From the NCBI GenBank assembly GCA_026770585.1, contig MU647230.1, positions 32,976 to 60,112 of the forward strand: a stretch of DNA of 27,137 nucleotides. Reading direction: 5' to 3'. The stretch comes from Baffinella frigidus. Its lineage: Eukaryota; Cryptophyceae; Cryptomonadales; Baffinellaceae. The translations under genes were made by a program, and so were the position numbers. Shown in pieces: positions 405 to 26,915 of this stretch. Numbering within the stretch: position 1 is the first letter of the stretch; every line of letters starts with the position of its first letter. The notes beneath the pieces were generated by a model. That model ran no database searches, was not told the origin of the DNA, and was given only the letters and a program-made list of their open reading frames with translations.

Positions 405-860
405 GGGTTTAGGGTGTAGGGGTTTAGGGTGCAGGGTTACCACCACGTTAGTTTCGGGTTTAGGGCCACCCTCACCCCCCCCTCACGGCAGGTGGGGGTA
501 GACGTGGTGGCACAGAAACCCCAAACCCCAAACCCCAAACACTCAACCGTTAACCTGAACCCTCAACCCTAACCAAGGTGGAGGTAGGCTCTCTCTCTAT
601 CTCTCCCTCTCCCCCTTTCTCCCTGAGAGGTGTGAGGGGTTTTGCCCCTCATGGCAGGTGAAACCATAAATGTTAAACCCTAAACCCTAAACCCCAAACC
701 CTTAACCTGAAGCCTGAAGCGTAACGAAGGTGGAGGTAGACGTGGTGGCGAAGGTCGAGGACTTCTTCGTCGGCCTCAACGCGGGTCCTCTCCCCCACAG
801 TCTTTAGTGCTCAGGGTGTATGGTTTAGGGTTCAGGGTTTAGGGTTTTCCCAAACCCCTA
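390..860. repeat. Mixed-orientation telomere-like arrays
   Basis: Degenerate CCCTAAA/CCAAACC and TTTAGGG units alternate here, with orientation switches near 398 and near 850. They lie in introns of gene 1 around the exon at 730-784. Units vary (TTTAGGG, TGTAGGG, TTCAGGG), so these are interstitial arrays and not a chromosome end. Confidence 0.7.
484..594 (+). repeat. Partial echoes of the exon at 730
   Basis: At 484-505 the sequence GGTGGGGGTAGACGTGGTGG, and at 573-588 AAGGTGGAGGTAG, copy the first bases of the exon at 730-784 (GTGGAGGTAGACGTGGTGG). Both are cut off after a few codons, one by a CCAAACC array and the other by a CT microsatellite. Confidence 0.6.
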
Positions 861-1634
861 CACCCTGCGCCTGTCAGTTACGAGGCGGGTCTATGAGTCA
901 CGAGGCGGGCCTATCTATCCCGAGGCGGGCCTGTTCGCGCGCGAAAAGGCGCTCCCGCAGCCAACCCGGCCTCCTCAGCACGAGGAGACCTCATCCGGGG
1001 ACATGTTTAATTCAAAAGAAAACGGATCCCTATTTGTTCATAGGAGTTGGACGAAGGTTAATTAGGGCCCTCATTAAAATCAATTAGGGCCAGAATCCGG
1101 TTTGATAGGCCATTTTCTTTTGAATTGAACATGTTCCCGGATGAAGTCCCGCGTTAGTAATTCTGACCGGCTGTCTTCTCGCGGGCGATCGTGTTCGTGG
1201 TTTCATGCTATCTAAGGCGTTGACGTGTACCATATTACGGTGGCTGTTGCTATCTTGGCAGATAATACCCCACACAGTCTAGCTCTTCCTGACTCGGGTT
1301 GACTGATCGTCTTCACTCCAGAAGCTGCCGGATTTGCACCCAAACCCCGGGGAATTGACTTCCAGTCTCGCCATGTTGGCGAGACCAAACCGTATTAGGC
1401 AGCGCTAGACAGTGGGCTTCGCAAAACCCAAACGTTCTTCTATTTGACACGGTCTGGTGCCAAACATTTTAAAACGTGGGACTGGCGCAGGTACCTGGCT
1501 CAAGATCCGAATGAAACAGATTGCTGAATCGGCCGCCCGGCACCTTGAAGGCCTTCCAGCTGCTGTACTCCCTCAACCCTCAACCCGAACCCCGAAACCT
1601 CAAACACGAAACACGAAACACCCAACACGAAACC

Positions 1635-1715
<81 letters not shown>

Positions 1716-3664
1716 ACCCCAAACCCGAAACCCGAAACACGAAACACCCAACACGAAACCCTAAACCTTGAACCCTGAACCCTAAACCCTGAACCCTAAA
1801 CCCTCAACCTAAACCTAAATCCTAAACCCTACACCCTGCACCATCAACCCGAAACCATAGACCGCAAACCCTAACCCCTGAAGGCGTTTTGCCGCAGGGC
1901 GCACCGGAAGGCGCGAGCATAGAGCAGCTGCTGCGCGGAACTGGCCTGGTTGCACTCCCCGAGGTGCATACAGACACACACCCTAACCTCTAATTCCCAG
2001 AAAAGAACGCTCCACCACCAAAGCTGCTTTCGATCGATTGTGAACTCGGGATCATGGTACAAATTTAAATCGCTCTGATGCAACACGTTTGACCATGGGG
2101 GGTGGCAAACCCTAAACCCGAAACCCGAAACCCGAAGCCCGAAACCCGAAACCCAAAACCCGAAACCCGAAACCCGAAACCCGAAACCCGAAACCCGAAA
2201 CCCGAAACCCTAACCCCTAACCCATGAACCGCAAACAGGTGGAGGAGGCGGAGAGCGACCAGGAATGGCTCTTCAACGACAACCCTGGCGGTACCCCCCC
2301 ACCAGAGAATCAACTTACGAAATCAACTTACGGTCGCCAGAGAATCAACTCACGAAATCAACTTACGGTCGCAGTATGCTGGCAGAGAGAGACCTTTCAT
2401 GAGAAGTGTTCCAGTTCTGATGGCGTCCATCTTGCAGGGGCCCCCACGCCCAAAGTTGACGATCCTGGTGCTGAACTCTAGCTCTGTCCCACTTGATTTC
2501 GTTTCATCGTTAAAAAACTTGAGCCGTCATTATTATTTTTAAAGGAGGATCTCCAGTAGAGCTGGTCTCTGATGAGTTGACACTTTTCGGACCTCGAAAA
2601 ACTTCTAAACTTTCAAACTCTTTTAGTCAACTCGTACGAAATTTACCACAACGTAAATTTCTTACAATTTCGCTGTAGTAAATTTCAGGTGAGTTGACTA
2701 AAAGAGTTTGGAAGTTTGGAAGTTTTTCGAGGTCCGAAAAATGTCAACTCATGAGAGACCAGCTCTACAAATTAACTGTCCATCTACGGCTAAATTGTTT
2801 TAATGATGAGACGAAATCAAGTGGGACAGAGCAAGGAACTGTCAACTTACTCAACTGTCAACTTGTCAAAACGAAGGGTGGCTCCTCACCCGAGAGTGAG
2901 TGTTGTTCACTTAGTGCGGTCCACGTGTCGCCATAAGTGGCCAGGGATTAGCCACAAGTATCCCCCCACCAGAGGGTTCCTTTCGTTCTCCTAGCGTCCA
3001 TCTTGCAGGGTCAGGGCATAAACCCCAAATCCCACATCACCCAACCCCTGAACCTTAAACCCCGGGTTGCCCTGAACCCTCAACCCCGCTGGCCGAATCC
3101 GAAACCTTCAACCCTAAACCCTCAACTCTAACTACTCTCGCAGACAACACAAGCGTCTCGGGGCAAACGTTGGGTGGGGTGTATCTTATTCCCACCAGAG
3201 CTCGACACCTAGTTCTCTCCGAGGCTTTACAGGGGTACCTCGCTCATAAGAAAGTAGTGCCCCCCCCCTAGGACCACCATAGGGCCCTAGGCATAGGCCT
3301 ACTGTAGGGTCCTAGGGGGGGGGGGGTTCTTATGAGCGAGGTAACCCTGTACACCCTGAACCCTGAACTCTAAACCCTTTTCCCCCCATACAAGGGTACC
3401 TCGCTCATGAGAAACCGTCCCCCCCTTAGGACCACCATAGGGCCCTAGCTAGGCATGGGCCTACGGCCTACTGTAGGCCCTAGGGGGGCGCGGTTTCTGA
3501 TGAGCGAGGTACCCCTGTACACCCCCGCAGACAACACGGGGGTCTTGAAGCAAATGAGCTTCGACCCGAACCCCTAAATCCTAAACCCTGAACCCTAACC
3601 CCTAACCCCTGAACCCTCAACCCTCAACCCTGAAACCTAAACCCTAAACCTTGAACCCTAAACC

Positions 3665-3717
<53 letters not shown>

Positions 3718-3844
3718 ACTGTAAACTACCCTCGCAGGCAACACGGGCGTCTCGGGGCAAATGAGCTTCGATCCCGCCAGCACTCTAGTACGCCCGCGCC
3801 TCTCTGTTGACGAGATCCTCCGTCGCGCACGTGGCAAGACCTAG
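730..3844 (+). CDS. Unrecognised spliced gene, 3' part (five exons, stop at 3842-3844)
   Basis: Exons assembled by hand: 730-784, 1491-1564, 1898-1963, 2239-2290, 3738-3844. Each is bounded by AG before and GT after. Phases agree at every join (1, 0, 0, 1), and the total of 354 bases gives 117 residues and TAG. The conceptual product begins VEVDVVAKVEDFFVGLNAG, passes through EQLLRGTGLVALPE and an acidic EEAESDQEW, and ends LSVDEILRRARGKT. I recognise no family. Acceptors end in GCGCAG, GCCGCAG, GCAAACAG and CTCGCAG. The last three follow CCCTAAA- or CCCTCAA-type arrays, which act as the upstream intron sequence. Introns hold MITEs and echoes of the first and last exons. The 5' end is not found and may lie outside the window. 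The shared phases make the gene convincing; its function is unknown. Confidence 0.72.
885..945. repeat. GAGGCGGGCC-type GC-rich motif cluster
   Basis: Three tandem occurrences of CGAGGCGGG(C/T)CTAT-like sequence. The same motif, mostly in reverse orientation, recurs at 3925-4080, 4326-4346, 15503-15512 and 22680-22692. Confidence 0.6.
991..1144. mobile_element. Foldback element, family E, copy 1
   Basis: A 154-base element with inverted ends TCATCCGGGGACATGTTTAA and its near complement ending CATGTTCCCGGATGA. It has the same length as the copy at 11190-11343 and shares internal sequence such as CCCTATTTGTTCATAGGAG. No clear target duplication is visible for this copy. Confidence 0.85.
1145..1490. 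other. Intron sequence with small hairpin
   Basis: No exon is seen here. 1290-1366 is a degenerate copy of repeat P (ACTCGGGTTGAC to GAATTGACTTCC). Near 1364-1385 there is a perfect hairpin, GTCTCGCC-ATGTT-GGCGAGAC. The stretch ends at the acceptor of the exon at 1491. Confidence 0.5.
1565..1885 (+). repeat. CCCTCAA/CCCTAAA array in intron of gene 1
   Basis: A long array dominated by exact CCCTCAA heptamers (about 1628-1718), flanked by CCCGAAA, CACGAAA and CCCTAAA variants. It ends shortly before the acceptor TTTTGCCGCAG of the exon at 1898. It is C-rich in the sense strand of the gene. Confidence 0.9.
2100..2238 (+). repeat. CCCGAAA array ending at a 3' splice site
   Basis: About fifteen CCCGAAA heptamers followed by CCCTAACCCCTAACCCATG and the acceptor GCAAACAG of the exon at 2239. 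The array is the only candidate for a pyrimidine tract at this splice site. Confidence 0.85.
2296..2372 (+). repeat. Tandem duplication of about 34 bases
   Basis: Two tandem copies of AGAATCAACTTACGAAATCA plus ACTTACGGTCGC lie directly after the donor of the exon at 2239-2290. They look like decayed intron sequence. Confidence 0.7.
2478..2835. mobile_element. Outer foldback element, family K, with a second element nested inside
   Basis: Ends CTAGCTCTGTCCCACTTG and the complementary CAAGTGGGACAGAGCAAG define a 358-base element related by its terminal CTAGCTCTG to the elements at 21074 and 26671. The central 2559-2765 is a separate long palindrome. Only short sequence such as GATTTCGTTTCATCGTTAAA and its complement belongs to the outer unit. 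Confidence 0.8.
2559..2765. mobile_element. Nested inner foldback element with TA flanks
   Basis: Long inverted arms of roughly 75 bases start GAGCTGGTCTCTGATGAG and end CTCATGAGAGACCAGCTC, around a core of ACGAAATTTACCACAACG. TA precedes and follows the element, which fits a TA target duplication on insertion into the outer element. Confidence 0.8.
3230..3349. mobile_element. Foldback element, family B, copy 1
   Basis: A near-perfect palindrome with ends CAGGGGTACCTCGCTCATAA and its complement, flanked by TA on both sides. The core carries CCTAGG-ACCACC-ATAGGGCCCTAGG and CTACTGTAGGGTCCTAGG. It is about 120 bases and non-coding. Confidence 0.9.
3391..3517. mobile_element. Foldback element, family B, copy 2
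   Basis: Same termini and core as copy 1, with TA flanks. It ends 9 bases before the CCCGCAG acceptor of the second last-exon echo, so the element occupies the region just upstream of a splice acceptor. Confidence 0.9.
3570..3731 (+). repeat. CCCTAAA/CCCTCAA array before the last exon
   Basis: A degenerate array with a block of exact CCCTCAA units (about 3664-3718), followed within about 20 bases by the acceptor ACTACCCTCGCAG of the exon at 3738. Confidence 0.9.
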
Positions 3845-4197
3845 TCCTTAATACCCTAGGCTTAACTATCCGGTTTTCAGGATGTTAGCGCACGAACCTC
3901 CGCCTCATGAACCGCGTGAGACAGGCCCGCCTCGGGACAGATAGGCCCGCCTCGGGGGAAAATGGCTCCAAGGGTGAGTCCTTTTCCCCTGAGGCGGGCC
4001 CGTCCAGGACCCGGTCCTCACACCCGCCTCGGGACAGGCCCGCCTGGGGAGGACCTAGTCCAGGACGAGCCCGCCTCGGGCCGTTAGATCGACTGTACTC
4101 GGGGTAAGCCCCTTGAAGGCTGCACGTGCGTTCGGGAGTGAACATCGGAAGCCGCGCACGCCTCTTCCCGTGAGGGTGTGGTGACGCCTCAGGAATA

Positions 4198-4314
4198 CAG
4201 GGGTGCCTGGCTCATATGAAACTCCAACCCCCCTAGGATCACCATAGGACCCTAGGCATAGCCCTACTGTAGGGTCTTAGGGGGGGTTAGTTTCTGATGA
4301 GCGAGGTACCTCTG
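4198..4314. mobile_element. Foldback element, family B, copy 3
   Basis: Ends CAGGGGTGCCTGGCTCAT and ATGAGCGAGGTACCTCTG with TA on both sides and the CCTAGG core. Its arms are more diverged than in copies 1 and 2. Confidence 0.9.
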
Positions 4315-4375
4315 TAGCGTGAGTCGGGCCCGCCTCGGGACAGATAACGTCTCTTTCTGACGCTGCTCCGTGCGG

Positions 4376-4486
4376 GTATACCCCTTACGTGGCCAGGTAG
4401 TCAAATTTGACTGCCAAGAGGTCCTAGGCAAGTCCTACGGCCCTACGGTAGGGCGCATGAGCCTACTGGCTACTTAAGGGGTATAC
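4376..4486. mobile_element. Foldback element with GTATACCCCTTA ends
   Basis: Inverted ends GTATACCCCTTACGTGGCCA and GGCTACTTAAGGGGTATAC enclose about 111 bases. The core again contains CCTAGG and a CCCTACGGTAGGG palindrome, as in families B and J. It is a single copy in the window. Confidence 0.8.
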
Positions 4487-4580
4487 ATTCCGCATTGCGG
4501 CCGTATTGGATTTAATAAAGTTGTCTCTCTCGCATTGCAGGATCTTACCCCCCCCCCCCCCCTCCCAAGGAGGCTAGGTT

Positions 4581-7500
4581 TCAGAAGGACCCATAGAGAG
4601 GTCGCGCACACTCGACAGCGGCCTTTTTTCGGGCGTAGACAACATCTGTCCGTAGGATGTACTTGGTACCCTGGTGTGCCCCGCGTGGTTGTCAGAGGGG
4701 GGTAGCATCGTATTGAGCACGGACAGAAATCCGAGGGCCCCAGAGGGTTTTGTCCCTGTTGCCAGAGTGCAACGTTTTGGGCGAATAGATTCACATTGGT
4801 TGAGAAGAGGAGATGAGCCGCACGGGGACGCTGGGACACGTTGCACATTCCTGAAGCGGCTTTGACCGGTCGCGAGGGACAGGACCTATCTGCCTCACTC
4901 GGGTTGACCGACTTTTCTCAAGGAGACATGCTGGGCGTGCGGTACAAATCCGTCAACTCTGGAGCGAAAACGAGCCCGGGCTCACCAGACTGGTGAGCCC
5001 AAACATACTGAGACAGAGCTAGAGGACTGTTGCATCTTTTCTTGGTGCGGACCTGCGTCACAGGGCGCGCCTGGTTTAGGGTTTCGGGTTTCGGGTTTCG
5101 GGTTTGAAACGTTGAAGGCTCGGCGCGCACCACGCCAGATTGATCGAGGGAAACCGACGCCTTATCCACGCCAGATCTGGCGTCGTTGACTTAAGGATTC
5201 AAGGGGGTTCCCCTGAAAGATGTCAAAAGTGGATGTTTCGATCCCTCTGGCGTGGCACCTGCGTCACAGGGCGCGCCTCGTGCTGCCAGCAGTCCACCCC
5301 ATGCCTGTTTCGGGTTCAGGCTTCAGGGTTTGGGGTTTGGGGTTTGGGGTTTGGGGTTTAGGGTTTAAGGTTTAGGGTTTGGGGTTTAGTGTTTAAGGTT
5401 TAGGGTGTAGGGTTTAGTTAGGGTTTAGGGTTCAGGGTTTAGGGTTTAGGGTTTAGGGTTTAGGGTTTAGGGTTTAGGGTTTAGGGTTTAGGGTTTAGGG
5501 TTGCCTGTGCAGCAGCGCCAGGCCAGGTACTGGTGTGATGCGCGCGCTTTCCTGCTTTAGGGTTTAGAGTTTAGTGTATAGGGTTTAGGGTTTAGGGTTC
5601 AGGGTTTGTCAGTAATACAGCCTTCTTCCCCCATGTGTGTTGAGTGCGCATGACCGCACTCCCGATCCTGCTTTCCTGCTTTCATCCGGGAGCATCATGT
5701 AACGAAATAAAAATGGCAACAAAATCTACTACACCTTTGCTTTACTATCACTAGTAGGAGCCTTTTGTGTAGTAAATTTCGTTGCCCATTCTCATGAAAT
5801 TAAATGATGTTCCCGGATTAGCTTGCAAGGAAAGCTTGAGCCTGAAGTGAGGACGAGCGTTATTGATGCAAACATGGGCATGCCTGTGCATGCCCAGTCC
5901 CCAGTCCGTAGGAACACCCCTGTGTTCCTACGGGTTGCCTACCGGAGGGTCCTAGGTCTTATCGCTTAGGGGTTATTCAAAGTCCCTTCGAAGTCCGCTG
6001 GGTGGCCTGTGCACCAGCGCCGAATCTAGCAGAGGCGTGATACGCGCACTTTCCTGCCCGGAAGGAAAGCTTCAGGCTCAAGAGAGAAGGAGATTTTTTT
6101 ATGCCAACATGGCCGTTAAGTCCCCCCCACGGAGGCTAGGTCGCAGCAGGACCATAAATGAAGTCACGCACACTCTTCAGGCTCACCACACAACGGGCTA
6201 CGAGGGAATTTTCGGGCACTCATTGCCCAAGTGTCTGTTACCTTATCCGTAAGAACCCCCCTATGTCACTACAGGTTGCCTACCATAGGGTCCTAGGTCT
6301 TATCGTTTAGAGGTTATTCAAAATCCCTTCGAAGTCCGCTGTGTGGGAAGGGAAAGTGCGGTCATTACAGATCAAAACCAACATGGCCACCATGCATTCC
6401 ACAGAGAGAATGATATTTTCAATGCCAACATGGCTATGTTGCAGCAGGACCAAGAGAGCAGTCACGAGAGAGGTGTCCCAGCCACCAGCCCTCCCAGGCG
6501 GACCAAATCGACGATTGTTTGGAGCCATTTCCTCGGGTGGCACATTCGTTTTCGAAGGTGCCGCCCGAGGAATTGGCGCATGCCCCAGCCTCGATTTGGT
6601 CCATCTCGGAGGGCTGGTGGAAAAGCTAGTTTCGGAAGCTTCCAGCTCTGGAAGGCTTTTTGGGACCTGAAGCGGATCAAATTCCCTCTACGCTCTCCCC
6701 CTTTTCAGACTTTGAAAAATTTCAGGCCTCGAAAGGGGATTTGACCCGCTTCAGGTACCAGAAAAGCCATCCAGAGCTGGAAGCTTCCGTAACGAAAGCA
6801 ACATCCGAACAAGTTCATCGCATCACCTGAAAGAATTCATTTCGCAGCGCGTCCATCTAAAGGATTTTCGGTACAAATCCCGGTATCTAAAGCCCTAAAC
6901 GTACGAAACGGCTCCAAAGTCAAGCCACATATGAGATAGAATCTATCACGTGACGGGACGCGAGTGGGCCACTCGAGAATGCTGGAGGATCCTATTTGTA
7001 TGTGGGGCTGTAAATATTTGTACCAGGATAAGGTGTTCCAACCTCGTGACTGGCCAATATATGGCTAGCTACGTGACCAATCAACGAAAGTTACTACACA
7101 CATGCCCACTTTTAAAATCACATCGGTTTTAAATAGGCCCCTCTAGCATTCTCGTGTGGAAGTGCCTCACGGGAGCACCATCGGGAAAGATGTGTGCCAG
7201 GACGACACCTAATGCGAGCAAGGCAGTGTACCAGGGAAAACTCAAACTAATTAACAGTTGTATGGGGTGTAGGGTGTGGGGTGTAGAGTGCAGGGTGCAG
7301 GGTGCAGGGTGCAGGGTGCAGGGTGCAGGATGCAGGGTGCAGGGTGCAGGCTGTAGGGTATAGGGCGTAGGGTCTAAGGATCACGGAGGGACAGACCTTC
7401 CCCCCGTGCTCATTATAGAAGCACGTTTCGCCCCCACCGTATGAGGACAGGTAGCCTCACTCGGGTTGACAGACTATTCTTAAGTTGCCATGCTGGGTCT

Positions 7501-10093
7501 GCGATACAAATCCGTCAACTTTGGAGCGGAAAAGAGCCCCGACCTGCCCCCCATGCTGATGGTAGAAGCACGTTTCGCCTCCACCGGAGGAGGACAGATA
7601 GATCATAAATTTCTGGGGGAAATTTCGCCAAGACGATAACTAATCCGAGCCGGCTGAATTAAAAACTGTTAACGGTCACACGGGAGGGCACTCAACCTGC
7701 CCTCAGACCTGCCCTTCAGATTTGCCATGGCGTTTGAGCCATTTCGTACTTTTAGGGCTTTAAAATACCTGGTTATGTACCAGAAATCTTTTAGATAGGC
7801 AGTTCCTGAAATTAAATCTATTTAGGTCCGGGACTCGACCTGTCCCCCGTGCTCATTATAGAAGCACGTTTCGCCCCCGCCGCATGAGGAGAGATAGATC
7901 AGCACCGTGTACCTGTTTCCAGGGGTTTGGGGTTTAGGGTTTAGGGTTTAGGGTTTAGGGTTATGGTTATGGGTTTGGAGTTTAGGGTTTAGGGTTCAGG
8001 GTTCAGGGTTCAGGGTTCAGAGTTTTGGGTTCAGGGTTTAGGGTTCAGGGTTTAGCTACTGGAACGTCCTACCCCACCCTATCCTGTAACCGACATCAGA
8101 TTCTGATGGCGACGGCTCCAATTCCCACAACTTTTGGGGGACATTCAAATCATATCAGACCCAAAGTTGACATGTTGTAACCAAAACCTGACTGTTAAAC
8201 CAAAATTCGTTTTACAAAGATTAGATAGACAGAGCGGGCCCAAGCTTTTCAGTAAAGTGTTCAGGGTTTAGGGTTCAGGGTTTAGGGGCCACTCAGGTTC
8301 ATCACCAAGCTGCCTCGAGGCAGCATGGTGATGATTAGAGGGGGGATTTAATGCGGCAACGGTTTTAATTTAAAACTATTGGATTCAATGAAAATTACTA
8401 CACGAACGTTTTAATATTACTAATAAAACTCATTGTGTATGGTAAATTGCATTACCAGAAAGTTTTAAATCAAAATCGTTTTCCTATGCAATTCCTCTAT
8501 TCCAGGGAAATTAGGTCCTCGGAACCATACCCTGTTTGTGGGGGAATACATCGAGGCCGTGGTGGCATGCATAAAGGTCCCTCCTGCGGCACGGAAACGT
8601 GCAGGGGGTTCTCAAAATTCAGGACACGCACCGCCCCTAGCGTGGTCTATCCTCCAAGGACTAGCTCTACAGTAGGACCCTAAGGCGGTGCGTGTCCTGA
8701 ATTTCGAGTAGCCACGCCAGGTCAGAAGCCGATATTTCATTGTTACTACACGATCTTCAAGTAAAGTTGATTCTACCCGGGAAACACGCCAAAAGTGTTG
8801 GGAATTAGAGCTCTTTGCCGCCGCAATAATGTTTAAAAGAAGTATTTTGTACCAGGATACGCCATTTATTGCGAACGAGTGTGTATGAACATCCCACTTG
8901 TGACCTGGCGTGGCCCCTGGACTTCACCATCCGCCATGAGAGCAGACCTCTAGGTCAGGTCCACTTAGTCGCCATAAGTACACTTTGAAGCCATAAGTCC
9001 ACTTAGTAGCGCCAACTCTGAATTTCGAGTAACCTCACACAGCGGACTTCGAAGGGACTTTGAATCACCCCTAAGCGATAAGACCTAGGACCCTACGGTA
9101 GGCAACCCGCAGGGGCATAGAGGGGTTCCTACGGATAAGGTGACGGAAACTCGGGCTCTCAGCGCCCGAAAATCCCTTGGTAGCCCGCTGTGTGGCATGT
9201 ACCGCGTCTCTCGCCCGATGGAGTCGACTTCCTAGCGCTCTCACCAACTTGGTGAGACCGGGCACCTTTTCATTCCAAAGTTAACGGATTTGTACCACGG
9301 ACCCAGACTGTCAACTTTAGAAGAGTACCGCGTTTCTCGCCCGAGGGCGACATCCTCTTTGTCAAGCTCTTGACTCGGGTGAACAGACTATTCTTAAGTT
9401 GACATGCTGGGCGTGCGGTACAAATATGTCAACTTTGGAGCGGAAGAGGACCGTGTCTCTCTTCCCAAGGAATCTACGTCCGCGCCGTCGTAGTGCTTCC
9501 CGAACCTGTTTTGAGGGTTCGGGGGTTGGGGCTTGGGGTTTGGGGTTTAGGGTTTAGGGTTTAGGGTTTGTGTTCTTGGGGTTTAGGGTGTGGGGTTTGG
9601 ATTTTAGGGTTTAGGGTTTAGGGTTTAGGGTTTAGGGTTTAGGGTTTGGGGTTTGGGGTTTAGGGTTTAGGGTTTAGGGATGAGGGTTTAGGGTCTAGGG
9701 TTTGGGGTTAAGGGTTTGGGGGTTGGGGTTTGAGTTTTAGGGTTTAGGCGTTTGGGGTTTGGGGTTTGGGGTTTGGGGTTTGGGGTTTGGGGTTTAGGGC
9801 GTGGGGTTTAGGGTTTATGCTTCAGGGTTTAGGGTTTAGGGTTTAGGGTTGAGGGTTTAGGGTTTAGGGTTGAGGGTTTAGGGTTTAGGGTTTAGGATTA
9901 AGGGTTTGGAGTTTAGGGTTTAGGGTTTGGGGTTGAGGATTAAGAGTTTAGGGTTTAGGGTTTAGGTTTGAGGGTTGAGGGTTGAGGGTTGAAGGTTGAG
10001 GGTTGAGGATTAAGGGTTGAGGGTTGAGGGTTGAGGGTTGAGGGTTTAGGGTTTAGGGTTAGGGTTTAGGGTTTAGGTTTGAGGGTTGAGGAT

Positions 10094-10139
<46 letters not shown>

Positions 10140-10345
10140 GTTTGAGGGTTGACGAACCGCAGTCCAGGGTCGTAGCGGTACAGCCTGATGTTGTCGTTGA
10201 ATCCTACCGCCTGCCGCCCTGCAGGGTTTGGGTTTAGGGGTGAGGGTTCAGGGTTGAGGGTTTCGGTTTTAGGGTTTAGGGTTTAGGGTTTAGGGTTTAG
10301 GGTTTAGGGTGTAGGGTTTAGGGTTTAGAATTGAGGGTGTAGGGT

Positions 10346-10391
<46 letters not shown>

Positions 10392-13869: not shown

Positions 13870-13899
13870 NNNNNNNNNNNNNNNNNNNNNNNNNNNNNN
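13870..13899. other. Assembly gap of 30 N
   Basis: Thirty undetermined bases. The true length is unknown, so continuity across this point is not guaranteed. Confidence 0.98.
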
Positions 13900-14488: not shown

Positions 14489-14914
14489 ACGCGCCCTGTA
14501 TGCACTCTGTGGGCTGGTGGATGTAGCCGCCCTCCCCTTTCGAGGAGCTTGAGTAACCTGTGTCATGAGATAATAAAACATAACACGATTTACTCGAGTA
14601 CAAGACCACGCACTCTGAATTGCCCAGCAGGGCTTGTAGGGAAATTAAGAGGGGTTTCCCGCAAAGAAGGACCTACTGCCCAGGCAGGTAGTTGCGGTGC
14701 CTCTCGGCCGAGAGGTCACAGCACGCCTGGACAGTCACCCCGGAAAAATCTCGAAAGAGCGGCCGACACGGGGTACAGTATGTAGCACAGTGCGGAAGGT
14801 ATGTGCGGCGCTGACTCTGGTTGTTTGGCAATAAATTACCAATCTCTGGACAGTCAGCGGCGCCGTGCAGGGGTTTCTCGCCTACCATAGGAGCCCAGGG
14901 CCGTGCACGTGGTA
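14489..14914. other. Region without recognisable gene; start of repeated GGTAGTTGCGGT unit
   Basis: 14653-14709 (TTTCCCGCAAAGAAGGACC, then CAGGTAGTTGCGGTG) recurs at 15097-15150 and, in part, at 15348-15372. The spacing and truncation resemble the exon echoes of the genes, but no convincing reading frame joins them. Confidence 0.4.
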
Positions 14915-15032: not shown

Positions 15033-15214
15033 TACCGTAGGAGCCTAGGGCCGTGCGCATGGTACAGCAACATCTGCAGCAAGCTACTAGCTTGGCAGGG
15101 TTTCTCGCAAAGAGGAACCTACTGGCCTGACGGGTAGTTGCGGTGGCGGTGCAACCAACTTGTCCATCTATCAACCTGGCCTGGTTGATGCTGCATCACA
15201 CCGCACATGGGTTA

Positions 15215-15488: not shown

Positions 15489-15985
15489 GGACTGACAAAG
15501 AACCCGAGGCGGACCCGTGGTACGTATCAAGGGCGTGTCAGGGTTTTAAATCAAAGGGTTGTCGGGGGTTTGGAGGCGCTTGCCTTGGGGGAGTCAGCGC
15601 GTCCGACGGCGACATTCAGAGCGTGTGCCGCGCGGATAAATCCCCCCGCACGCCCGACCTGCCTCCATATAGAGACGTTTCAGAACGTCGCCGTCTCCTT
15701 GTTAGCGAGGCAACCCTCTGTTAATAACAACACAGCCATCATGTATGCACCCCCACACGTTCATAGGGCAACGGACTGAAATCAAGGTACTTGAGTATGA
15801 AGCCCCCCGCACGCCCGACCTGCCTCCGAACAGAGATTTTCAGAACGCGACGGTTCGCGCCACTGGTACAAATCGAGGGCTGAAAGGTTGTGATAAACCC
15901 GTAGGGTGTTCGCGTTTGTGTTGCGGATACAGAGGCAAGGCGCGCGGTGGCTCAGGAAGAGCTAGACTTTGCAGCTGCGACGAAC
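15489..15985. other. Region with a repeated unit, possible orphan exon
   Basis: CCCCCCGCACGCCCGACCTG followed by CCTCC occurs at 15642 and 15805, each followed by AGAG and TTTCAGAACG. On the minus strand the first reads DGDVLKRLYMEA before GCAG|GTCGGG, in a frame the second copy has lost. It may be an exon with an echo, but no partner exon is seen. Confidence 0.3.
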
Positions 15986-16980: not shown

Positions 16981-17031
16981 CAGCCTCGCGTGACCGGAAG
17001 GCTTCCGCAGCTTCGGTTTCGTTCAAGATTC
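16980..17031 (-). CDS. Possible C-terminal exon, parent unclear
   Basis: The minus strand reads ILNETEAAEAFRSREAAQP and stops in the first CCCTAAA unit of the array. A weak acceptor (GTGGAAAG) precedes it. It could be the last exon of gene 3, but its phase does not join any exon I trust. Confidence 0.25.
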
Positions 17032-17151
17032 TTTCCACGGGGTAGATGCAAGGTTAAATGGCTCAAACTCCAGACCACAATCCCAGGGCTGGTGGTGAGT
17101 GGGACCCCAAATCGACTCTGGAATCTGGGTAAATGAGGTTTAAAAGAGGCA

Positions 17152-17277
17152 CCACGCCAGAATGATCGAGGGAAACCGACGCCTTATCCACGTCAGATCT
17201 GACGTGGTTGACTTAAGTATTCACGGGGTTTCCCTTGAAAGATGTCAAAAGTGGATGTTTCGAGTGCCCTGGCGTGG
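17152..17277. mobile_element. Foldback element, family H, copy 2
   Basis: Ends CCACGCCAGA and CCTGGCGTGG; shares GGGAAACCGACGCCTTATCC and GAAAGATGTCAAAAGTGGAT with the copy in gene 2. 126 bases. Confidence 0.9.
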
Positions 17278-17301
17278 TTCGCCTTCACCAGTTCAATCAA
17301 G

Positions 17302-17337
17302 TCACTCTCCAAAGGAGAGATCCGAACCCCCTCCACC
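17302..17337 (-). CDS. Possible further exon of gene 3
   Basis: A good acceptor, TTTTCTTCTCTTAG|GG, precedes it on the minus strand. Joined in phase 0 to exon 5 it reads GGGGSDLSFGE and stops, ending the protein at 263 residues. Another frame (VEGVRISPLESDLIELV) looks more protein-like but does not fit the phase. Undecided. Confidence 0.35.
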   Translation of the reverse strand, partial: GGGGSDLSFGE

Positions 17338-17444
17338 CTAAGAGAAGAAAATTACAGATCAGAAGGGCCCAGAGTGCAGGCGCACGACCTATACAACACA
17401 TGTATAGCGTATACAATACATGTATAGGGTCATTGAAACAATGC

Positions 17445-17675
17445 CGACCTTGCTGATAGGGGAGGCCTTGAGAGCGTCGAGGAGGGAGAGCAGACCATCG
17501 TTCAATTTACTACACGCATGCTTAATTTACGACACAAATGTGTGATACATTTACTACACAAACGCTTTGCTATTACTAGTATGCTCCAACTGTGTGGTAA
17601 GTTTGGTTACCCAAAAGAAATTCATCGAGCAGGTGCCCGGCCGCGCGCAGCGTCCTTTCCCGTCCGCAACATCGA
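17445..17675 (-). pseudogene. Second copy of gene 3 exon 5, interrupted by a foldback insertion
   Basis: The 5' half (17675-17637: GGGAAAGGACGCTGCGCGCG) and the 3' half (17492-17445: CTGCTCTCCCTCCTCGACGC to ATCAGCAAG|GT) of the exon at 17946-17851 are separated by about 140 bases of a TTACTACAC-type foldback. CTGCTC is present at both edges. The 5' half has a one-base deletion. The 3' half keeps the reading LLSLLDALKASPISK. Confidence 0.7.
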
Positions 17676-17689
17676 AATTCACCACTCAA

Positions 17690-17848
17690 ATGCGGTAACT
17701 TCTTCTTACTTCTTTCTTACTCTCGATACAGGTCCAAATGCGGCAACGGAATTTGCTACACAAATGCTTGACTCCTACTAGTAAGACCTAACCGTGTAGT
17801 CATTTTCGTTGCCGGGTTCTAAAAGAAAAATGAATTTCCCCGGATTAG
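17690..17848. mobile_element. Foldback element of family F at the donor of gene 3 exon 5
   Basis: The right end ATGAATTTCCCCGGATTA is 3 bases from the donor (AAG|GTC on the minus strand). The inner arms CGGCAACGGAATTTGCTACAC and GTGTAGTCATTTTCGTTGCCG-type sequence enclose CTACTAGTAAG. The left end is diverged, so its boundary is approximate. Confidence 0.7.
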
Positions 17849-17850
17849 AC

Positions 17851-19012
17851 CTTGCTGATAGGGGAGGCCTTGAGAGTGTCCAGGAGGGAGAGCAGCCGCT
17901 CGGCCGCGCGCAGCGCTCCTTTCCCATCCCCACGCCCCCCCCTCTCCTGCCATATGATAGATTTATTTGAGGTGATTGTTGAAGTGCCACACGGTGGGTT
18001 TCGAGGGTTTCGTGACCCCTAGATTTAGCGGTAACGTGACCACATTTGCATTAGAAAATCCTAAAAGTTAACTGCCCGCAGGGTAAGTTGACTTTTGATG
18101 AAAGGTCCGTAGTTCTCTGTGTGGATAGATGAGGGAGGGGGCGTACGAACCACGCCAGAGTGATCAAGGGAAACCGACGCCTTATCCACGACAGATCTGT
18201 CGTCGTTGACTTCAGAATTCAAGGGCTTTCCTTTGAAAGATGTCAAAAGCGGATGTTTCGATCCCGGTGGCGTGCGAAGATGAGCGAGTCACGGTTGCGA
18301 GCCCCGGTGACCTTTTGAACAGATTTAATTTAAGCCACCGTTTTGTGCTATCTCGATGGTGAAATTTGCTATCTTAGCCTCGACATAGCTTTACCATCTT
18401 AGCCTCGACATAGCTTTACCATTACATAAAACCCACCCCTGAGATAGCAAAAAGGTGAATTAAATGAAATAGGGTTCCTTAGGAACCTTGCTCAGATAGC
18501 GAGGGGGCAAATAGATCGGGTAATTTTGAGCCGTGTCCAAGTTGTGGGGACTGAAACTCCAAATTGAAGTTTCAGCGCCCACAACTTGACACGACTCGTC
18601 ATTCGTACCCGAATTAAGAAGATCCGTTCATGCTATCCGACCAAGGATCGAGAGGGGGGGGGGGCGTACGAAGATAAGCCCGTCAAGTTTGCGAGCCTCG
18701 GTGACTTTCTGCGCGCGGTCCTGGTCGAAGCAGCGGCACCCTTCCGGGCACGTAATGCCGTACTTCATCTGCAGGATCCTCCTGCGTCGGGCTTTGGGCT
18801 GAGGGGTCATGGTTTGCTTTCCCTGCAATGTCAGCGGATCACGCCCCTCAGCTGCTCAGCGTTGCTCGTCGAGAAAAGGTAAGCGCATCAAAGCTAGCGT
18901 AGCTGCTCAAGGGGAAAGAATCTTCTTAGGGCTTGGGTCTCAGGGCTGGGGGGCTAGGGATTAGGGCTGAGGGCTGACGACGCAGCTGATCCGCGATGCC
19001 CTCTCTCTCTCA

Positions 19013-19055
<43 letters not shown>

Positions 19056-19594
19056 ACACACACACTCTGTCTCTCTCTCTCTCACACCCTTCCGGGCACG
19101 TGATACCGTACTTCCCCTGCGGGATCCTCCTGCATCGGGCTTACGGTTTAAGGCTTAGGCCTTAAGGCTTAGGGATTAGGGCTGAGGGCTTAGGGGCTAG
19201 GGCTTAGGGCTTAGGGCTTAAGGCTTAGGGATTAGGGCCGAGGGCTTAGCAGCTAGGGATTAGGGCTGAGGGCTGAGGGCTGAGGGCTGAGGGCTGAGGG
19301 TTGCGGGTTAGTGGTGAGGGGTTAGCGATAATTCGCGCGCGGTCTGGATCGAAGCAGCGACACCCTTCGGGGCACGTGATGCCGTACTCTCTCTCTCTCA
19401 CAAAAACTCTCTCTCGCTCTCTCTCTCTCACACACACACTCTCTCTCGCTCTCTCTCTCACACACACACTCTCTCTCTCTCTCTCTCTCTATCTATCTCA
19501 CACACATACATACATACACACACACACCATCTCACTCTCTCTCTCTCTCACTCTCTCTCTCTCACACACTCACACACACACACACACACACACA

Positions 19595-19655
<61 letters not shown>

Positions 19656-22510: not shown

Positions 22511-22707
22511 CTCGAACGCCGGAGCACGAGACGGTGGGGCCCGTCCTTACACGGCCTGGCATTTTCCAAAAGTCAACAAACCACGATCAAGAAGGGGAAA
22601 GTCAATTCGTACCTTTTCCAGAGGGAAAAGACCGCAGCCCCAGGTTCGATTTTATCCACTTTTTGACTAAAAAAAGTACGGGCCCGCCTCGGTTAGATAG
22701 TTTCGTC
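22511..22707. promoter_or_regulatory. Divergent promoter region of genes 3 and 4
   Basis: Only 197 bases separate the start codons of gene 3 (minus, 22510) and gene 4 (plus, 22708). The interval contains GGGCCCGCCTCGG (22680-22692), the motif also clustered at 885-945 and 3925-4080. No TATA-like box is evident. Confidence 0.5.
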
Positions 22708-25310
22708 ATGGGCATGCTCCCGAGCTCGCAGCTCCCCCTGCCCCCCTCGGGGGCGCCTGCCGCGCCTGCCGCGATGGTCCAGTGCCTCGACACGCTCTTC
22801 TCGTCGCTGGCAGGGACGCGGCCGGAGGCTGGATTCTCCAAGGTGCGAGCCAGCTTCTGTTGTTGTCGAGGTCCTCGGATTTGCCCAGCACGCACGACCC
22901 ACAGCTCTGCGAAATAGCAGCGCAGCCCCTCACCCCCAGTGTTTTTTGTGTCGCTACTTGATCCACGTTTTTTCTGGCTGGCCTGCCAGCAGCATTTCCT
23001 GCTTCCCGTCTGATCCGGGTCTGTGAGATCCGTCACGCGCATGCTGATGAAGAGATTTCGGGTTCTTGAGATTTTTTGGCAGGATGCAGGTCGGGAGAGA
23101 GTTCCATTCCTGCCGCAAAGTTGCTGCAAACTTCTGGACTGCTCGCACTGAGGAAGATGCGAGATTCTAGTGATGGAACAGGGGAAGCTGCGGAGGGACA
23201 GAGTCTTGTGGGTTCGAGCCACCAGCAACCCGTAGCAGCTTGTACCGGGTCCTTGCAAGGATTCGGGTATTTTATTTAAAACAAAATCTTTCCTATGACC
23301 CTACGATAGGAAACCCTAGGGACCTCGAATTCCTGACGGGAGATACCCAAGAGATTTCTTGGGTTTAGCTGAAAATTACTACAGAACCCCGATCCGGTTA
23401 TAAGCTGCTACGGGTTGCTGGTGGGTTCCGAGGGTCTCCCAAGGACACGTCGAGGATCCGAACCCCCAGGCCTCCGAAGTGAACTCACCGAGTTTGTTTC
23501 CAAAGGTCGATTTGAACCAGGGATGTGCCCTGATCGGGCAACTTCCCACCAACCCTCACGGGAGGACCAAACCGTCAATTTTAAGACCTCAAATTTACCT
23601 GGCAGAGGGGTCAGATCTGACCCCTCTGTCAAAGGAGAGCCGCTCCAAAAAGTCGATTTGGTCCGATTGTGAGGGTCGGTGGTCTCGTTACAAATCGCCC
23701 GTTCGAAACGAACTCGGTTGGGCCTGGTGAGGAGCAAGGGCCGAAAGTGGCTGTTGCAGAGCACTATACACCCCTCAAGATCAAGCTAGAACCTGATCGT
23801 GTTTCGGGCTGGACAGGAGGTGACGAAGGCATACCACCAGCCACCAGAAGTGAACCAAAGCAAAAGTTGATTTCCCCTGCAGACTAACCCTCAGGGTTTA
23901 GTCTGCAGGGGGAATCAACGTTTTCCATTCTTCAATTTGGTTCTCTTCTGGTGGTTGGTGGTAGCAGCGAAGCCCCTCACCTCACATTTCTCTTTGCGGG
24001 GTCTGTCTCTCTCTCTCTCTCTCTCTCGTATCTCTCTCTTCCTCTCTCCCTAACCTCACATTTCTCTGTGTTCGGCAGGAGGTGACGGAGGCTGCTGAGC
24101 GCCTCAACGCTGCGCTCCTCGCCCAGAAAGGCTCCGGTGTGTACCCTAAACCCTGAACCCTGAACCCTGATCGCAGAGCTGTGCGTCGACGCACAGCTCT
24201 GCGAAATAGCAGCGCAGCTCCTCATCCCCAGTGTTTATTTTCTCCCTATTTGATCCACGTTTTTTGCGCCTCAACGCTGCGCTCCTCGCCCAGAAAGGCT
24301 CTGGTGTGTACCCTCAACCACCCTGCACCTTGAACCTTTTTTACAGGAATCGGCATTAACACCATTCGGTGGACTACGAAGGTTTAGATGGGGCCGGATT
24401 CCGGGGGGTGACGTGACCAAATTTGCATCAGATAAGGCCTTGAAGTTAATTGCCTTGTGATGAGAAGGTCCGTAGGATGATCCTAGTCCACCATGTGGAT
24501 CGCCTATATCTCTGCTTTCCGCTGAGGCTCCCGGGATAATCCGGGAACATGTTTAAGTAGGGCCCGAATCCCGTTTGCTAGTCCATCTTCATTTCAATCA
24601 AACAAGTGTCCGGATCCGGGCGTCGCAGGGCAAGACCTGGCGGCGGCGGGTTTGGAGGACATCCCGTTGCAGTAGCTCCTCACGACAAACCCGGGCCTCA
24701 ATCGCCTCTATCCCCGCGTTTTCTCTTAAAAGCTGGCAATGAAAATTACTACGCGACGGGTCACGTCCGACGCAATTGCGTAGTAATTTTCGTGCAGATT
24801 TTTCAAAAGAAAAACGCTCGTTCCCGGATGAAATCCGTGATCCCGTTGGGCGTCCCAGGGCAAGACTTGGCGGCGGCGGGTTCGGAGGACATCCCGTTGG
24901 AGTGGCTCCTCACGACAAACCCGGGGTTGGAAGCCATCACTGCCGCCGAAGCTGTCCATGTAACCCCCACCTCTCATGTGGAAACACTTATAATTTATCA
25001 GCTGGATTTCAATCAAAATTACTACACGTTTTCTTTAACATTACTAGTAAAGATCGTTCTGTTTAGTAAATTTCATTGAATCTAGTTTATAAATGATAAG
25101 TGTTTGCGTATGAAATCCCTGACCCTAAACTCTCAGCAATACACGCTAGTGGCTTCTCACGCCGAACCCGGGTTTGGAATTCATCACTGTTGCCGAAGCT
25201 GTCCACGTAAACTCTTAACCCTTAACCCTTATTACCCCTACCGTTGCGCATCTGGGGAACCCTCTGACCGTCGTTCAATTTTCCTTCGCCGCCACCAGTC
25301 TATTGCAGTC

Positions 25311-25378
<68 letters not shown>

Positions 25379-26454
25379 ACCCGGCAACGCCTCACAGAAA
25401 CCGTTTCCCATCTTAGCAACCACTCGCGTCATCTAACCCTCACCCCTCAACCCTGAGCCCTAAGACGCTCTGGGGGATGGCAGGTATGCGGGGCAACGCG
25501 GAGCGTCCCCTGCCCAGAGGGGCTCGGGGTTGAGAGCTTCGTGTTTCGGGTTTCGGGTTGAGGTGACGTGAGTAATTGCTAAGCTGAGCAACGGTGGCAG
25601 GTGTGCGGGGCAACGGAGCGTCCCATACCCAAAGGGGTCGAGGGTTCAGGGTTTAGGTGACGTCACCTGAACCAACGTGGTTGCTAAGCCAACGTGGTTG
25701 CTAAGCTGAGCAACGGTGGCAGGTGTGTGGGGCAACGCGGAGCGTCCCGTGCCCCTCAGACTGCCCCGGCTACGTTGCGGTACCGTCCGGGCCGCACTTC
25801 CCGCCTCTCTGCCAGCCGTGCTATCCACACTTTTCGCATGTTTCCACACAGTCTTCCTACAGTTTGTTTCAGTTTTCCACATTTTTTCCAGATTTTATAT
25901 TGTTTTTTGTAACGAAGCATCCCCTGCCCCTCAGACTGCCCCGGCTACGTCGCGGTGCCACCAATGACCCGTTACCCCAAATGTTGTCGCATTTGTACCA
26001 CACACCCGGGGTGTCAACTTCCGGTCTCCTCATTTTGAGGAGTCCAGGTTGGGTGAGGCATTGCTAGGTACCGTCCGGGCTGCACTTCCCACCTCTCTTT
26101 CCTTCGTCTTGCCGCACTGTTCCTCCCAGCACTCACACATTCGTGCTGCCTCACCGTGTTCACGCTTGACGAATTTGGCCCTTCCGGAAGGGTCTGGAAC
26201 TGTCTTGAACCTTTGATCGTCGTGGTTTCTCGATTTGGTAAAGCACAGGCCAGACGAAGGCTTCTACTGAAGAGAGAGAGAAATTTGCTGTATTGAGATA
26301 TTACAGCTGAGCGGGACCACAGAAAACCCCAAGGCAGCTGAAGCGTGCTTTCTTTCTCTGATCCGCGCTTGCTTTCTTTCGCAGCTGGGGGGCGTGAAGG
26401 ACCCTTCGACCCTCCTCCTGCTCCGCTCGGTGCACGACGTTCTCGCCTACTGCG
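22708..26454 (+). CDS. Unrecognised spliced gene, 5' part (four exons)
   Basis: Exons 22708-22842, 24079-24136, 24859-24959 and 26385-26454, with GGCAG|, CCCAG| and CGCAG| acceptors and GTGCGA, GTGTGT, GTAACC and GTCCGC donors. Phases agree (0, 1, 0, then 1 open). The product starts MGMLPSSQLPLPPSGAP, continues VQCLDTLFSSLAGTRPEAG, then EAAERLNAALLAQKGSGQ, IPLEWLLTTNPGLEAITA and LLLLRSVHDVLAYC. It is Ala/Leu-rich and probably helical; no family recognised. The start codon opens exon 1 and is followed by an in-frame second Met. The gene is divergent from the SET gene. It has no stop in the window and probably continues past 27137. An extra phase-0 exon at 25728-25784 is possible. Echoes of exons 2, 3 and 4 fill the introns. 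Confidence 0.72.
22980..23218 (+). other. Intron 1 segment, possible skipped exon
   Basis: TTTTTTGGCAG at 23074-23084 is a good acceptor, but the frames behind it do not keep the phase between exons 1 and 2. The rest shows nothing. Confidence 0.3.
23219..23424. mobile_element. Foldback element, family A, copy 3
   Basis: 206 bases, same length and ends (CCACCAGCAACCCGTAGCAG) as 11761-11966. Flanks GGTTCGAG and GTTCCGAG may be an imperfect target duplication. Confidence 0.92.
23546..23682. mobile_element. Foldback element, family D
   Basis: Ends CCACCAACCCTCACGGG and GAGGGTCGGTGG, inner GACCAAACCG and CGATTTGGTCC, centre GGGGTCAGATCTGACCCC. 137 bases. Confidence 0.85.
23834..23961. mobile_element. 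Foldback element, family D, TA flanks
   Basis: Ends CCACCAGCCACCAGAAG and CTTCTGGTGGTTGGTGG; centre CCCTGCAGACTAA-CCCTCAGGG-TTTAGTCTGCAGGG. TA on both sides. 128 bases. Confidence 0.88.
24269..24308 (+). repeat. Echo of exon 2 of gene 4
   Basis: GCGCCTCAACGCTGCGCTCC, CGCCCAGAAAGGCTC and a donor GTGTGTACC repeat the last two thirds of exon 2 (24079-24136). It still reads RLNAALLAQKGSG. The first six codons and the acceptor are replaced by the direct repeat that precedes it. Confidence 0.9.
24362..24498. mobile_element. Foldback element, family I, copy 3
   Basis: Ends CCATTCGGTGGACTACGAAG and TAGTCCACCATGTGG, interior GGGGCCGGATTCCGGGG and GACGTGACCAAATTT. Confidence 0.85.
24534..24615. mobile_element. 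Shortened family E element
   Basis: AATCCGGGAACATGTTTAAG to AACAAGTGTCCGGATCC, about half the length of the 154-base copies, with an internal deletion. Confidence 0.8.
24616..24703 (+). pseudogene. Echo 1 of gene 4 exon 3, with a stop codon
   Basis: GTCGCAG|GGCAAGACC begins a copy of exon 3 (24859-24959). TGG has become TAG in IPLEWLLTTNPG, and the copy stops after CCGGGCCTCAATC where a foldback element starts. It keeps a usable acceptor, so its inclusion would end the protein early. Confidence 0.88.
24704..24831. mobile_element. Foldback element, family F, with AATC target duplication
   Basis: 128 bases. Right end CGCTCGTTCCCGGATGA, diverged left end GCCTCTATCCCCGCG, inner arms AAAATTACTACGC and GCGTAGTAATTTTC. 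Exact AATC at 24700-24703 and 24832-24835. It lies between echo 1 and the real exon 3. Confidence 0.88.
24982..25105. mobile_element. Foldback element between exon 3 and its third copy
   Basis: Arms AAACACTTATAATTTAT and ATAAATGATAAGTGTTT, inner AAAATTACTACAC and GTTTAGTAAATTTCATTG. AT-rich, related to family F by the inner motif. Confidence 0.85.
25106..25215 (+). pseudogene. Echo 3 of gene 4 exon 3 (decayed)
   Basis: ATGAAATCCCTGA matches the bases before exon 3. GTGGCTTCTCACGCCGAACC, TCATCACTG-TGCCGAAGCT and GTCCACGTAA match its second half and donor. The first half and acceptor are lost. Three MITE plus exon units thus lie in tandem (24534-25215). Confidence 0.85.
25308..25376. repeat. 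CT microsatellite
   Basis: CT repeats with single interruptions, in intron 3 of gene 4. Confidence 0.97.
25475..25965 (+). repeat. Four partial copies of a GCGGGGCAACGCGGAGCGTC unit, possible extra exon
   Basis: Copies start at about 25483, 25599, 25721 and, lacking the first half, 25915. The third, GGTGGCAG|GTGTGTG to TACGTTGCG|GTACCG (25728-25784), is 57 bases open in phase 0 at both ends and reads VCGATRSVPCPSDCPGYVA. It could therefore sit between exons 3 and 4 of gene 4. The others are shortened echoes. The Cys-rich reading is not a family I know. Confidence 0.45.
25966..26384 (+). other. Intron sequence before exon 4 of gene 4
   Basis: A degenerate repeat P copy (about 25980-26050) and a second GTACCGTCCGGGC segment (26070; compare 25784) are visible. 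Otherwise nothing is recognised. It ends in a pyrimidine-rich tract and the acceptor CTTTCGCAG. Confidence 0.5.
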
Positions 26455-26461
26455 GTCCGCC

Positions 26462-26915
26462 CCCTACATGTAGTTGTACAGTCTATAGTTTTAAAGTTGC
26501 ATAGTCTATAGTGTTATAGTAGTTTTAGTTGTATAGTCTATGGTTTTATAGTAGTTTTATAGTCTGTACACCTATATTACCTTCCTACATGTCGTTGTAT
26601 AGTCTGTACATGTATTATACATTCCTCGCTCGGTGCACGACGTCCTCTCCTCCTGCGGTCTGGCCCCTCTCTAGCTCTGCCTGAGTAAAACTGGGCTCGC
26701 CATAAAACACATTTAGAGTAGAACTCCAGTACAAAAGGGCAACTAGAATCCTTGTATGGCGAACCCAGTTTTACTCGGGCAGAGCTAGCTACCGCGCGCG
26801 ATCGTTGTATAGTCTATACATCTATATCACCGTCCTACATGTAGTTGTATAGTATGTACATGTATCATACGTTCCTTTCCTGGTGCCCGATCTTTGCCTC
26901 CTTGCCAGCCTTGCT
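26462..26915 (+). repeat. ATAGTCTATA minisatellite with two echoes of exon 4 of gene 4
   Basis: TTGTATAGTCTATA-type units fill 26470-26620 and 26800-26870. After each comes a copy of the end of exon 4: CGCTCGGTGCACGACGTCCT (26626) and the poorer TCCTGGTGCCCGATC (26878), spaced about 250 bases. The real exon is 26385-26454. Confidence 0.8.
26671..26788. mobile_element. Foldback element, family K, copy 2
   Basis: Ends CTAGCTCTGCCTGAGTAAAA and TTTTACTCGGGCAGAGCTAG, arms continued by CTGGGCTCGCCAT and ATGGCGAACCCAG, interior CCAGTACAAAAGGGC. Inserted after the second exon 4 copy. Confidence 0.92.

Follow-up and report, generated by a model that had tools for sequence, protein, structure and literature searches.

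Second copies of an exon that adjoin the original are familiar from tandem exon duplication and from mutually exclusive exons. The exon echoes considered here, which lie in introns of four genes within a 27,137-nucleotide stretch of genomic DNA (the window, C856:32976-60112 in a genome of 382,457,362 bases and 1364 contigs), differ from these in that they are mostly truncated and are absent from an independent contig of gene 2. Closer likenesses are small tandem duplications, which are reported to arise at staggered double-strand breaks through CST-Pol alpha fill-in and end joining (PMC8355091, PMC5730883), and the potato RdRp gene, in which a tandem duplication across an intron-exon boundary created an intron and its donor (PMC4974935). 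The small tandem duplications resemble the echoes in being direct, local, often small, found across species and repeatable at one site, whereas the window copies are separated by other DNA, lie up to 1.6 kb apart, have diverged and are known here from sequence alone. The potato duplication likewise has a unit that spans one exon edge and leaves a former exonic piece in an intron; unlike it, the window displays no new intron, and the old splice sites are apparently retained. As to the statement in the original prediction that no named system with this pattern was known, duplications of both kinds have been described (PMC8355091, PMC5730883, PMC4974935). A literature search (open-licence papers, titles and abstract openings) found no description of such dense exon fragments in introns, and the type of event is known, while its density and its excess at exons seem to be new. 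To our knowledge, duplications across exon edges have mostly been reported as single cases. The density observed here (14 of 24 exons in the window and 7 of 20 exon pieces elsewhere) permits measurement of the rate, size and junctions of such duplications and lets one ask how introns grow and why exon-touching duplications outnumber others; furthermore, gene prediction could be misled because the copies carry splice sites and reading frames.

The echoes are quite likely to be remnants of small tandem duplications, each spanning one exon edge, that have since diverged. A unit reaching from the intron into the exon would leave a truncated exon start with its acceptor upstream of the exon, and a unit reaching from inside the exon into the intron would leave a truncated exon end with its donor downstream. 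The outermost functional splice sites would still bound the full exon, so that the message would be unchanged; the silent duplication could then drift to fixation, after which the inner copy would decay. Between and within the copies, foldback elements, CT tracts and telomere-like arrays would subsequently enter or expand. The duplications would be formed by error-prone repair of staggered breaks, an origin proposed here because of the literature on small tandem duplications (PMC8355091, PMC5730883); this mode of formation, the neutrality and the order of events are what we infer. What the data show are the copies themselves, their orientation, their side, their truncation inside exons, the single version of each exon in the intronless gene 2 contig and the recurrence of the pattern in other genes.

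The original prediction reported echoes in four genes and proposed self-alignment against shuffled sequence. In a comparison of this kind, applied to the 24 exons of the window (best copy within 2.5 kb of each exon against 60 dinucleotide shuffles, both strands), a same-strand copy scores above all 60 shuffles for 14 exons and an opposite-strand copy for 1, with one inverted tie (g3_e5). A fifteenth exon, g3_e7, joins the set once its flank is added. By the same test, which covered exon bodies and not flanks separately, 9 of the 24 exons have no copy (g1_x2, g1_x3, g1_x4, g2_e1, g2_e3, g3_e1, g3_e2, g3_e3 and g4_e1); all four exons longer than 110 nt belong to this set. In the remaining window DNA, about four times as much, the top exon score is 17.4, and there, too, a few exons exceed their local shuffles. 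In a self-comparison of the window, the echoes appear as short-range direct repeats of non-simple DNA among the matches listed. The copies differ from their exons by about 5-26%, and their flanks differ as well. Pairwise alignment identifies copies at the predicted places, with small shifts; the echoes are real in all four genes, and nearly all positions stand; 25106 is corrected to 25148-25210 and 19322 to 19332-19388. Of the two predicted copies of gene 4 exon 4, the one at 26626 is confirmed, and the one at 26878 is not, because it scores 7.2 against the exon, i.e., at chance level, and instead copies the echo at 26627. The alignments are as follows (identical over aligned positions; those additional to the original prediction are marked new).

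479..511, + strand: start of gene 1 exon x1, upstream copy cut by a telomere-like array; 490-511 against 728-749, 21/22
550..587, + strand: start and left flank of gene 1 x1, upstream copy cut by a CT tract; 33/38
645..660, + strand: short upstream copy of gene 1 x1, left flank shared with 479; 15/16 to 479-494; outside the geometry count
3108..3167, + strand: start of the last gene 1 exon with its acceptor and array, upstream copy; 54/61
3515..3568, + strand: start of the last gene 1 exon with its acceptor, upstream copy abutting a telomere-like array; 48/58
10972..11033, - strand: end and donor of gene 2 exon 2, downstream copy; 56/65
10850..10913, - strand: end of gene 2 exon 2, second downstream copy; 54/64
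10761..10806, - strand: end of gene 2 exon 2, third downstream copy; 42/46
9320..9346, - strand: end of gene 2 exon 4, weak downstream copy; 22/28
9201..9238, - strand: end of gene 2 exon 4, downstream copy; 28/38 in DNA, 81.8% identity over 11 residues
7540..7605, - strand: gene 2 exon 5 with donor, downstream copy; 56/66
7388..7454, - strand: gene 2 exon 5 with donor, second downstream copy; 60/68
6000..6057, - strand: whole-exon copy of gene 2 exon 6, upstream; 46/59
5043..5075, - strand: end and donor of gene 2 exon 7, downstream copy; 30/34
6122..6180, - strand: end of gene 2 exon 8, distant upstream copy, the sole clear exception in geometry; 48/60
19085..19142, - strand: acceptor and start of gene 3 e4, upstream copy; 52/58
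19332..19388, - strand: gene 3 e4, another upstream copy, with a CT tract attached; 53/59
18266..18317, - strand: end and donor of gene 3 e4, downstream copy (new); 42/52
17446..17668, - strand: gene 3 e5, split downstream copy consisting of 17446-17500 (50/55) and 17627-17668 (37/43), an element apparently inserted between them
15797..15852, - strand: acceptor and start of gene 3 e7, upstream copy (new); 49/58
15116..15152, - strand: end of gene 3 e8, downstream copy (new); 31/37
14673..14728, - strand: whole-exon copy of gene 3 e8, downstream (new); 43/57
24266..24336, + strand: end and donor of gene 4 exon 2, downstream copy; 65/71
23814..23830, + strand: acceptor and start of gene 4 exon 2, upstream copy (new); 16/17
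24171..24265, + strand: copy of gene 4 intron 1 (24187-24265) whose left edge carries a perfect 34-nt palindrome (24171-24204)
24618..24695, + strand: acceptor and start of gene 4 exon 3, upstream copy with an in-frame stop; 73/78
25148..25210, + strand: end and donor of gene 4 exon 3, downstream copy; 54/63
26627..26668, + strand: end of gene 4 exon 4, downstream copy; 37/42
26804..26902, + strand: copy of a copy, repeating 26554-26654; 81% over 101 nt; outside the geometry count

The weakest of all are the two copies of gene 2 exon 4 (79% over 28 nt and 74% over 38 nt). One copy is non-exonic, namely, the gene 4 intron 1 segment 22895-22973 that recurs at 24187-24265 (new).

The geometry of the copies was counted over 27 alignments representing 26 copies (645-660 and 26882-26902, copies of copies or at chance level, were omitted); these comprise 17-78 aligned columns at offsets from 108 nt to 1.6 kb. 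Pieces of exon starts lie upstream and pieces of exon ends downstream in 23 of the 27 alignments, with two in disagreement and two, which are whole-exon copies, uninformative (one-sided binomial p ~1e-5, counted per alignment, which overstates independence given that several copies share one edge). The disagreeing alignments are 17627-17668, the second piece of a divided copy, the first piece of which agrees, and gene 2 exon 8, a true exception. An exon edge is crossed by 24 of the 27 alignments, which fits selection: a duplication wholly inside an exon would alter the protein, and one across an edge keeps the outer splice sites working. Only 2 of the 27 span a whole exon; the other 25 lack a part of the exon or one splice site. 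Second blocks of similarity between the spacer and the flank occur in 21 of the 27 pairs, many of them element-to-element matches; on our reading, seven pairs (gene 1 x1, gene 2 e2, gene 2 e5, gene 3 e5, gene 4 e2, gene 4 intron 1 and gene 4 e4) appear to retain remainders of a longer unit. For gene 2 exon 2, the longer unit is visible in the self-comparison (10713-10913 against 10952-11144). Zero-gap tandem duplications with units of 17-28 nt and 100% identity are present outside exons at 12337-12394, 18371-18422 and 25672-25706.

The pattern recurs elsewhere in the genome. Twenty exon pieces outside the window, located by protein or family search alone, were sampled from a relative of gene 3 (C371, 2 pieces), chaperonin PF00118 (C1202, C39, C94 and C6, 10 pieces), proteasome PF00227 (C97, C237, C319, C53 and C497, 6 pieces) and HSP70 (C62, 2 of 17 matches). 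A direct copy within about 1.5 kb scores above 60 single-letter shuffles for 7 of the 20 pieces, and an inverted copy for 1; two of the seven are doubtful, as L042 is marginal and L036 is on an 11-kb contig that is possibly not nuclear. With a score of at least 18, 6 of 18 exon pieces outside the window have direct copies and none of the 18 has an inverted one, compared with 33 direct and 32 inverted among 216 flank windows, a raw contrast with foldback elements unmasked. On our reading, L036, L038, L040, L045, L049 and L051 appear to obey the side rule, and L045 and L049 mirror the layout of gene 1 (telomere-like array, CAG, exon start, array, CAG, exon). The earlier claim that the copies are local and extend beyond a single gene is supported, also by four genes elsewhere, one of them on the 11-kb, possibly non-nuclear contig. 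Further stretches were sampled, four beside the window (all N) and 16 elsewhere (7 readable at least in part); in unmasked 60-nt windows of the readable stretches, the best local copy is direct in 174 of 540 and inverted in 51 of 540, as raw counts without shuffles and with foldback elements unmasked. A Pfam scan of the three forward frames of the stretch L018 found no domains. In the stretch L004, repeated exon-like pieces together with telomere-like arrays were read by eye.

Several observations weigh against simple tandem duplication as the whole account. The majority of the outside exon pieces (13 of 20) have no copy. No exon pair abuts, the smallest spacer being 46 nt, which implies that insertion at the junction is common or coupled to the duplication. 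For gene 2 exon 8, the copy lies 1.5 kb away on the side not predicted. Among the differences between exons and copies in 18 alignments, 40 of 93 are nonsynonymous, against 53-57 expected (P 0.0005-0.0035) in a simulation in which mutations are offered at the same rate to a constrained exon and a neutral copy; the deficit is less marked in a less redundant set of alignments (see below). Finally, a score of at least 18 is reached by 12 of 20 short exons but only by 52 of 400 length-matched pseudo-exons placed in unique non-exon, non-echo DNA (the placements overlap and are drawn from 9134 bases), and pairs of at least 89% identity are found for 7 of 20 short exons against 23 of 400; a uniform duplication rate would not predict this excess. 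Since the excess holds at 89% identity or more, slower decay of exons alone does not explain it; faster turnover of intron DNA or breaks favouring exon edges could be the cause. An earlier, smaller draw of pseudo-exons gave 28 of 240 at score 18, and a pool in which echo territory was kept gave 98 of 400, to be compared with the same 12 of 20. Uniform duplication was considered when 19 of 84 exon windows and 86 of 369 other unique windows looked equal, and was rejected because the other DNA contained copies; with these removed, the exons stand out. The other unique window DNA that has copies is not closer to exons.

Gene 2 is a 2OG-Fe(II) oxygenase, as its relative P0014 bears PF13640. P0014, encoded by an intronless 1005-nt contig from the source 'lgn', equals the gene 2 exons exactly except for residues at exon borders, and the contig is, in our view, probably the spliced message of this genome or of one almost identical to it. 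The product of gene 3 is a MYND/SET protein, the joined translations of its exons giving Pfam hits to zf-MYND and SET; its closest relative is a protein of the cryptophyte Baffinella frigidus with 65% identity, and a search of the genome with the Baffinella protein returns the window's own gene 3 as the top match (66%), so that, judged from this one protein, the source organism is probably a cryptophyte. A protein search returned no relative of gene 4, and a Pfam scan, the only search made for gene 1, gave no family. For genes 1, 3 and 4, the exon edges were placed by our own reading and not from a transcript, with the 65% relative as an additional guide for gene 3. The window carries one 30-base N gap (13870-13899). 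The exons concerned are:

728..785, + strand: gene 1 exon x1, inferred edges, open frame KVEVDVVAKVEDFFVGLNA, no Pfam family
3738..3843, + strand: gene 1 last exon, inferred edges, frame open to the stop
12482..12946, - strand: gene 2 exon 1, exact match to P0014 residues 1-155, without a copy
11103..11187, - strand: gene 2 exon 2, exact match to P0014
9453..9507, - strand: gene 2 exon 4, exact match to P0014
7840..7914, - strand: gene 2 exon 5, match to P0014
5503..5554, - strand: gene 2 exon 6, match to P0014
5259..5306, - strand: gene 2 exon 7, exact match to P0014
4581..4673, - strand: gene 2 exon 8 with the stop, exact match to P0014
18667..18770, - strand: gene 3 exon e4, 34-residue match to P0001
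17860..17934, - strand: gene 3 exon e5, 25-residue match to P0001
15584..15652, - strand: gene 3 exon e7, 24-residue match to P0001
15346..15387, - strand: gene 3 exon e8, 14-residue match to P0001
24079..24137, + strand: gene 4 exon 2, open frame, no relative in the protein search
24856..24959, + strand: gene 4 exon 3, open frame
26386..26453, + strand: gene 4 exon 4, open frame, inferred 3' edge

Duplication and insertion might have occurred in one event: a staggered break near an exon edge would be filled in on both sides and joined through a filler, either a telomere-like array or a captured foldback element, with a result like a long target-site duplication of variable size. This possibility, which we regard as unlikely, is compatible with the fact that every spacer is occupied, with exon pieces joined directly to an array in gene 1 (3568, 511), L045 and L049, and with the dispersed element 17742-17855 (similar to 5715-5826), whose terminal sequence puts its end at about 17847, next to the start of the gene 3 e5 alignment (17848). 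Copy ends within 12 nt of masked elements make up 52 of 120, against a background of 7.9% per side at unmasked positions, although insertions also tend to terminate alignments; an element is near 31 of 60 inner ends and 21 of 60 outer ends (p = 0.097). Later insertion is nevertheless likely in some cases, given that the foldback element 23832-23963, close to one junction, seems to carry a 2-bp TA target duplication of its own and that the insert 17501-17626 divides the gene 3 e5 copy. Moreover, the second blocks suggest that the original unit exceeded the visible copy in the seven pairs named above, and the copy-bearing edges (20 of 48) show no significant association with nearby elements (p 0.13-0.38). 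The last result led to the rejection of adjacent elements as the cause of the duplications; neither it nor the comparison of inner and outer ends gives clear support to the unequal exchange at intron repeats that had originally been suggested, the enrichment of copy ends near elements notwithstanding.

A broader and similarly doubtful idea is that exon edges are hot spots of break repair, healed by telomere-like repeats or captured elements. If so, one process would account for the echoes, for the arrays of the CCCTAAA type found at acceptors and for a large share of intron length, and would explain the excess of copies at short exons as well as the arrays that separate truncated from full copies in gene 1, L045 and L049. 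Insertion of telomere repeats at breaks would place an array at the break with a flanking duplication and would leave an empty site in a relative; exon-array junctions are present in the window and elsewhere. Intron birth by duplication also involves local duplication of exonic DNA near splice sites. Comparison of donor with acceptor in 19 introns gave no homology above shuffles in 13, homology through the telomere-like array only in 5 (one marginal), and one intron, the 85-nt g3_i1, that was too short; with no support beyond the arrays, this candidate was rejected.

Local re-copying was part of the original prediction; with free placement, in which exon fragments would be template-switched and pasted anywhere nearby, it appears very unlikely. 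The perfect palindrome bordering the 24187 copy on the left resembles a scar of snap-back synthesis and suggests such synthesis in that one case (24171-24204), and the misplaced copy of gene 2 exon 8 would fit as well; yet 23 of the 25 informative alignments follow the tandem geometry, even if not all are independent, and inverted exon copies are nearly absent (1 of 24 in the window, 1 of 18 elsewhere).

It is still less probable that the copies are functional tandem exons, i.e., alternative or poison exons under selection. Donor dinucleotides are visible in the copies of gene 2 exons 2 and 5, and the 18 alignments show 53 synonymous differences against the 40 nonsynonymous ones. This excess weakens to 34 nonsynonymous of 71 (P 0.04-0.09) in 14 less redundant alignments, so that purifying selection on the copies was not adopted; in addition, in-frame stops occur in 2 of the 18 (a set without the gene 1 copies, gene 3 e7 and e8, 9320 and 23814), and nearly all copies are incomplete, as detailed above. 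P0014 holds one version of each gene 2 exon and none of the extra copies of exon 2 (three), exon 4 (two), exon 5 (two) and exons 6, 7 and 8 (one each), although it is a single contig and rare isoforms are possible. Assembly error or chance similarity, to which repeat-rich DNA and the N gap might lend some credit, is the least probable explanation of all because the copies are diverged, have different flanks and in some cases stops, exceed all shuffles for most exons and recur on other contigs.

Apart from the duplications, the window contains dozens of foldback elements of roughly 100-370 nt that belong to several families (e.g., 23832-23963, 3222-3357 and 2478-2835). Eight direct-strand members of the TACAGGGGTACC foldback family reach 60% or more; one exact motif of this family has no match in viral contigs. 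At 5547-5682, a telomere-like array and other DNA lie between 12-nt direct repeats CTTTCCTGCTTT (5547-5558 and 5671-5682), an arrangement that resembles a long target duplication. Read on the sense strand of the host gene, most of the telomere-like arrays are C-rich (AACCC), with AACCC:GGGTT counts of 86:8, 160:9, 71:16 and 21:15 in genes 1-4, respectively, and a total of 348:56 for 13 loci elsewhere (two of them overlapping), including L038, L040, L045, L049, L050 and L052; L032, L047 and L048 lean the opposite way on few motifs. At least two AACCC motifs are present within 70 nt upstream of 10 of the 21 acceptors in the window. As a branch-point motif, CTAAC or CTAAA may act as a branch point here, which would select the orientation of the array. 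Read against P0014, gene 2 intron 6 has an apparent GC donor (CACAG followed by GCAACC, window 5495-5503, minus strand).

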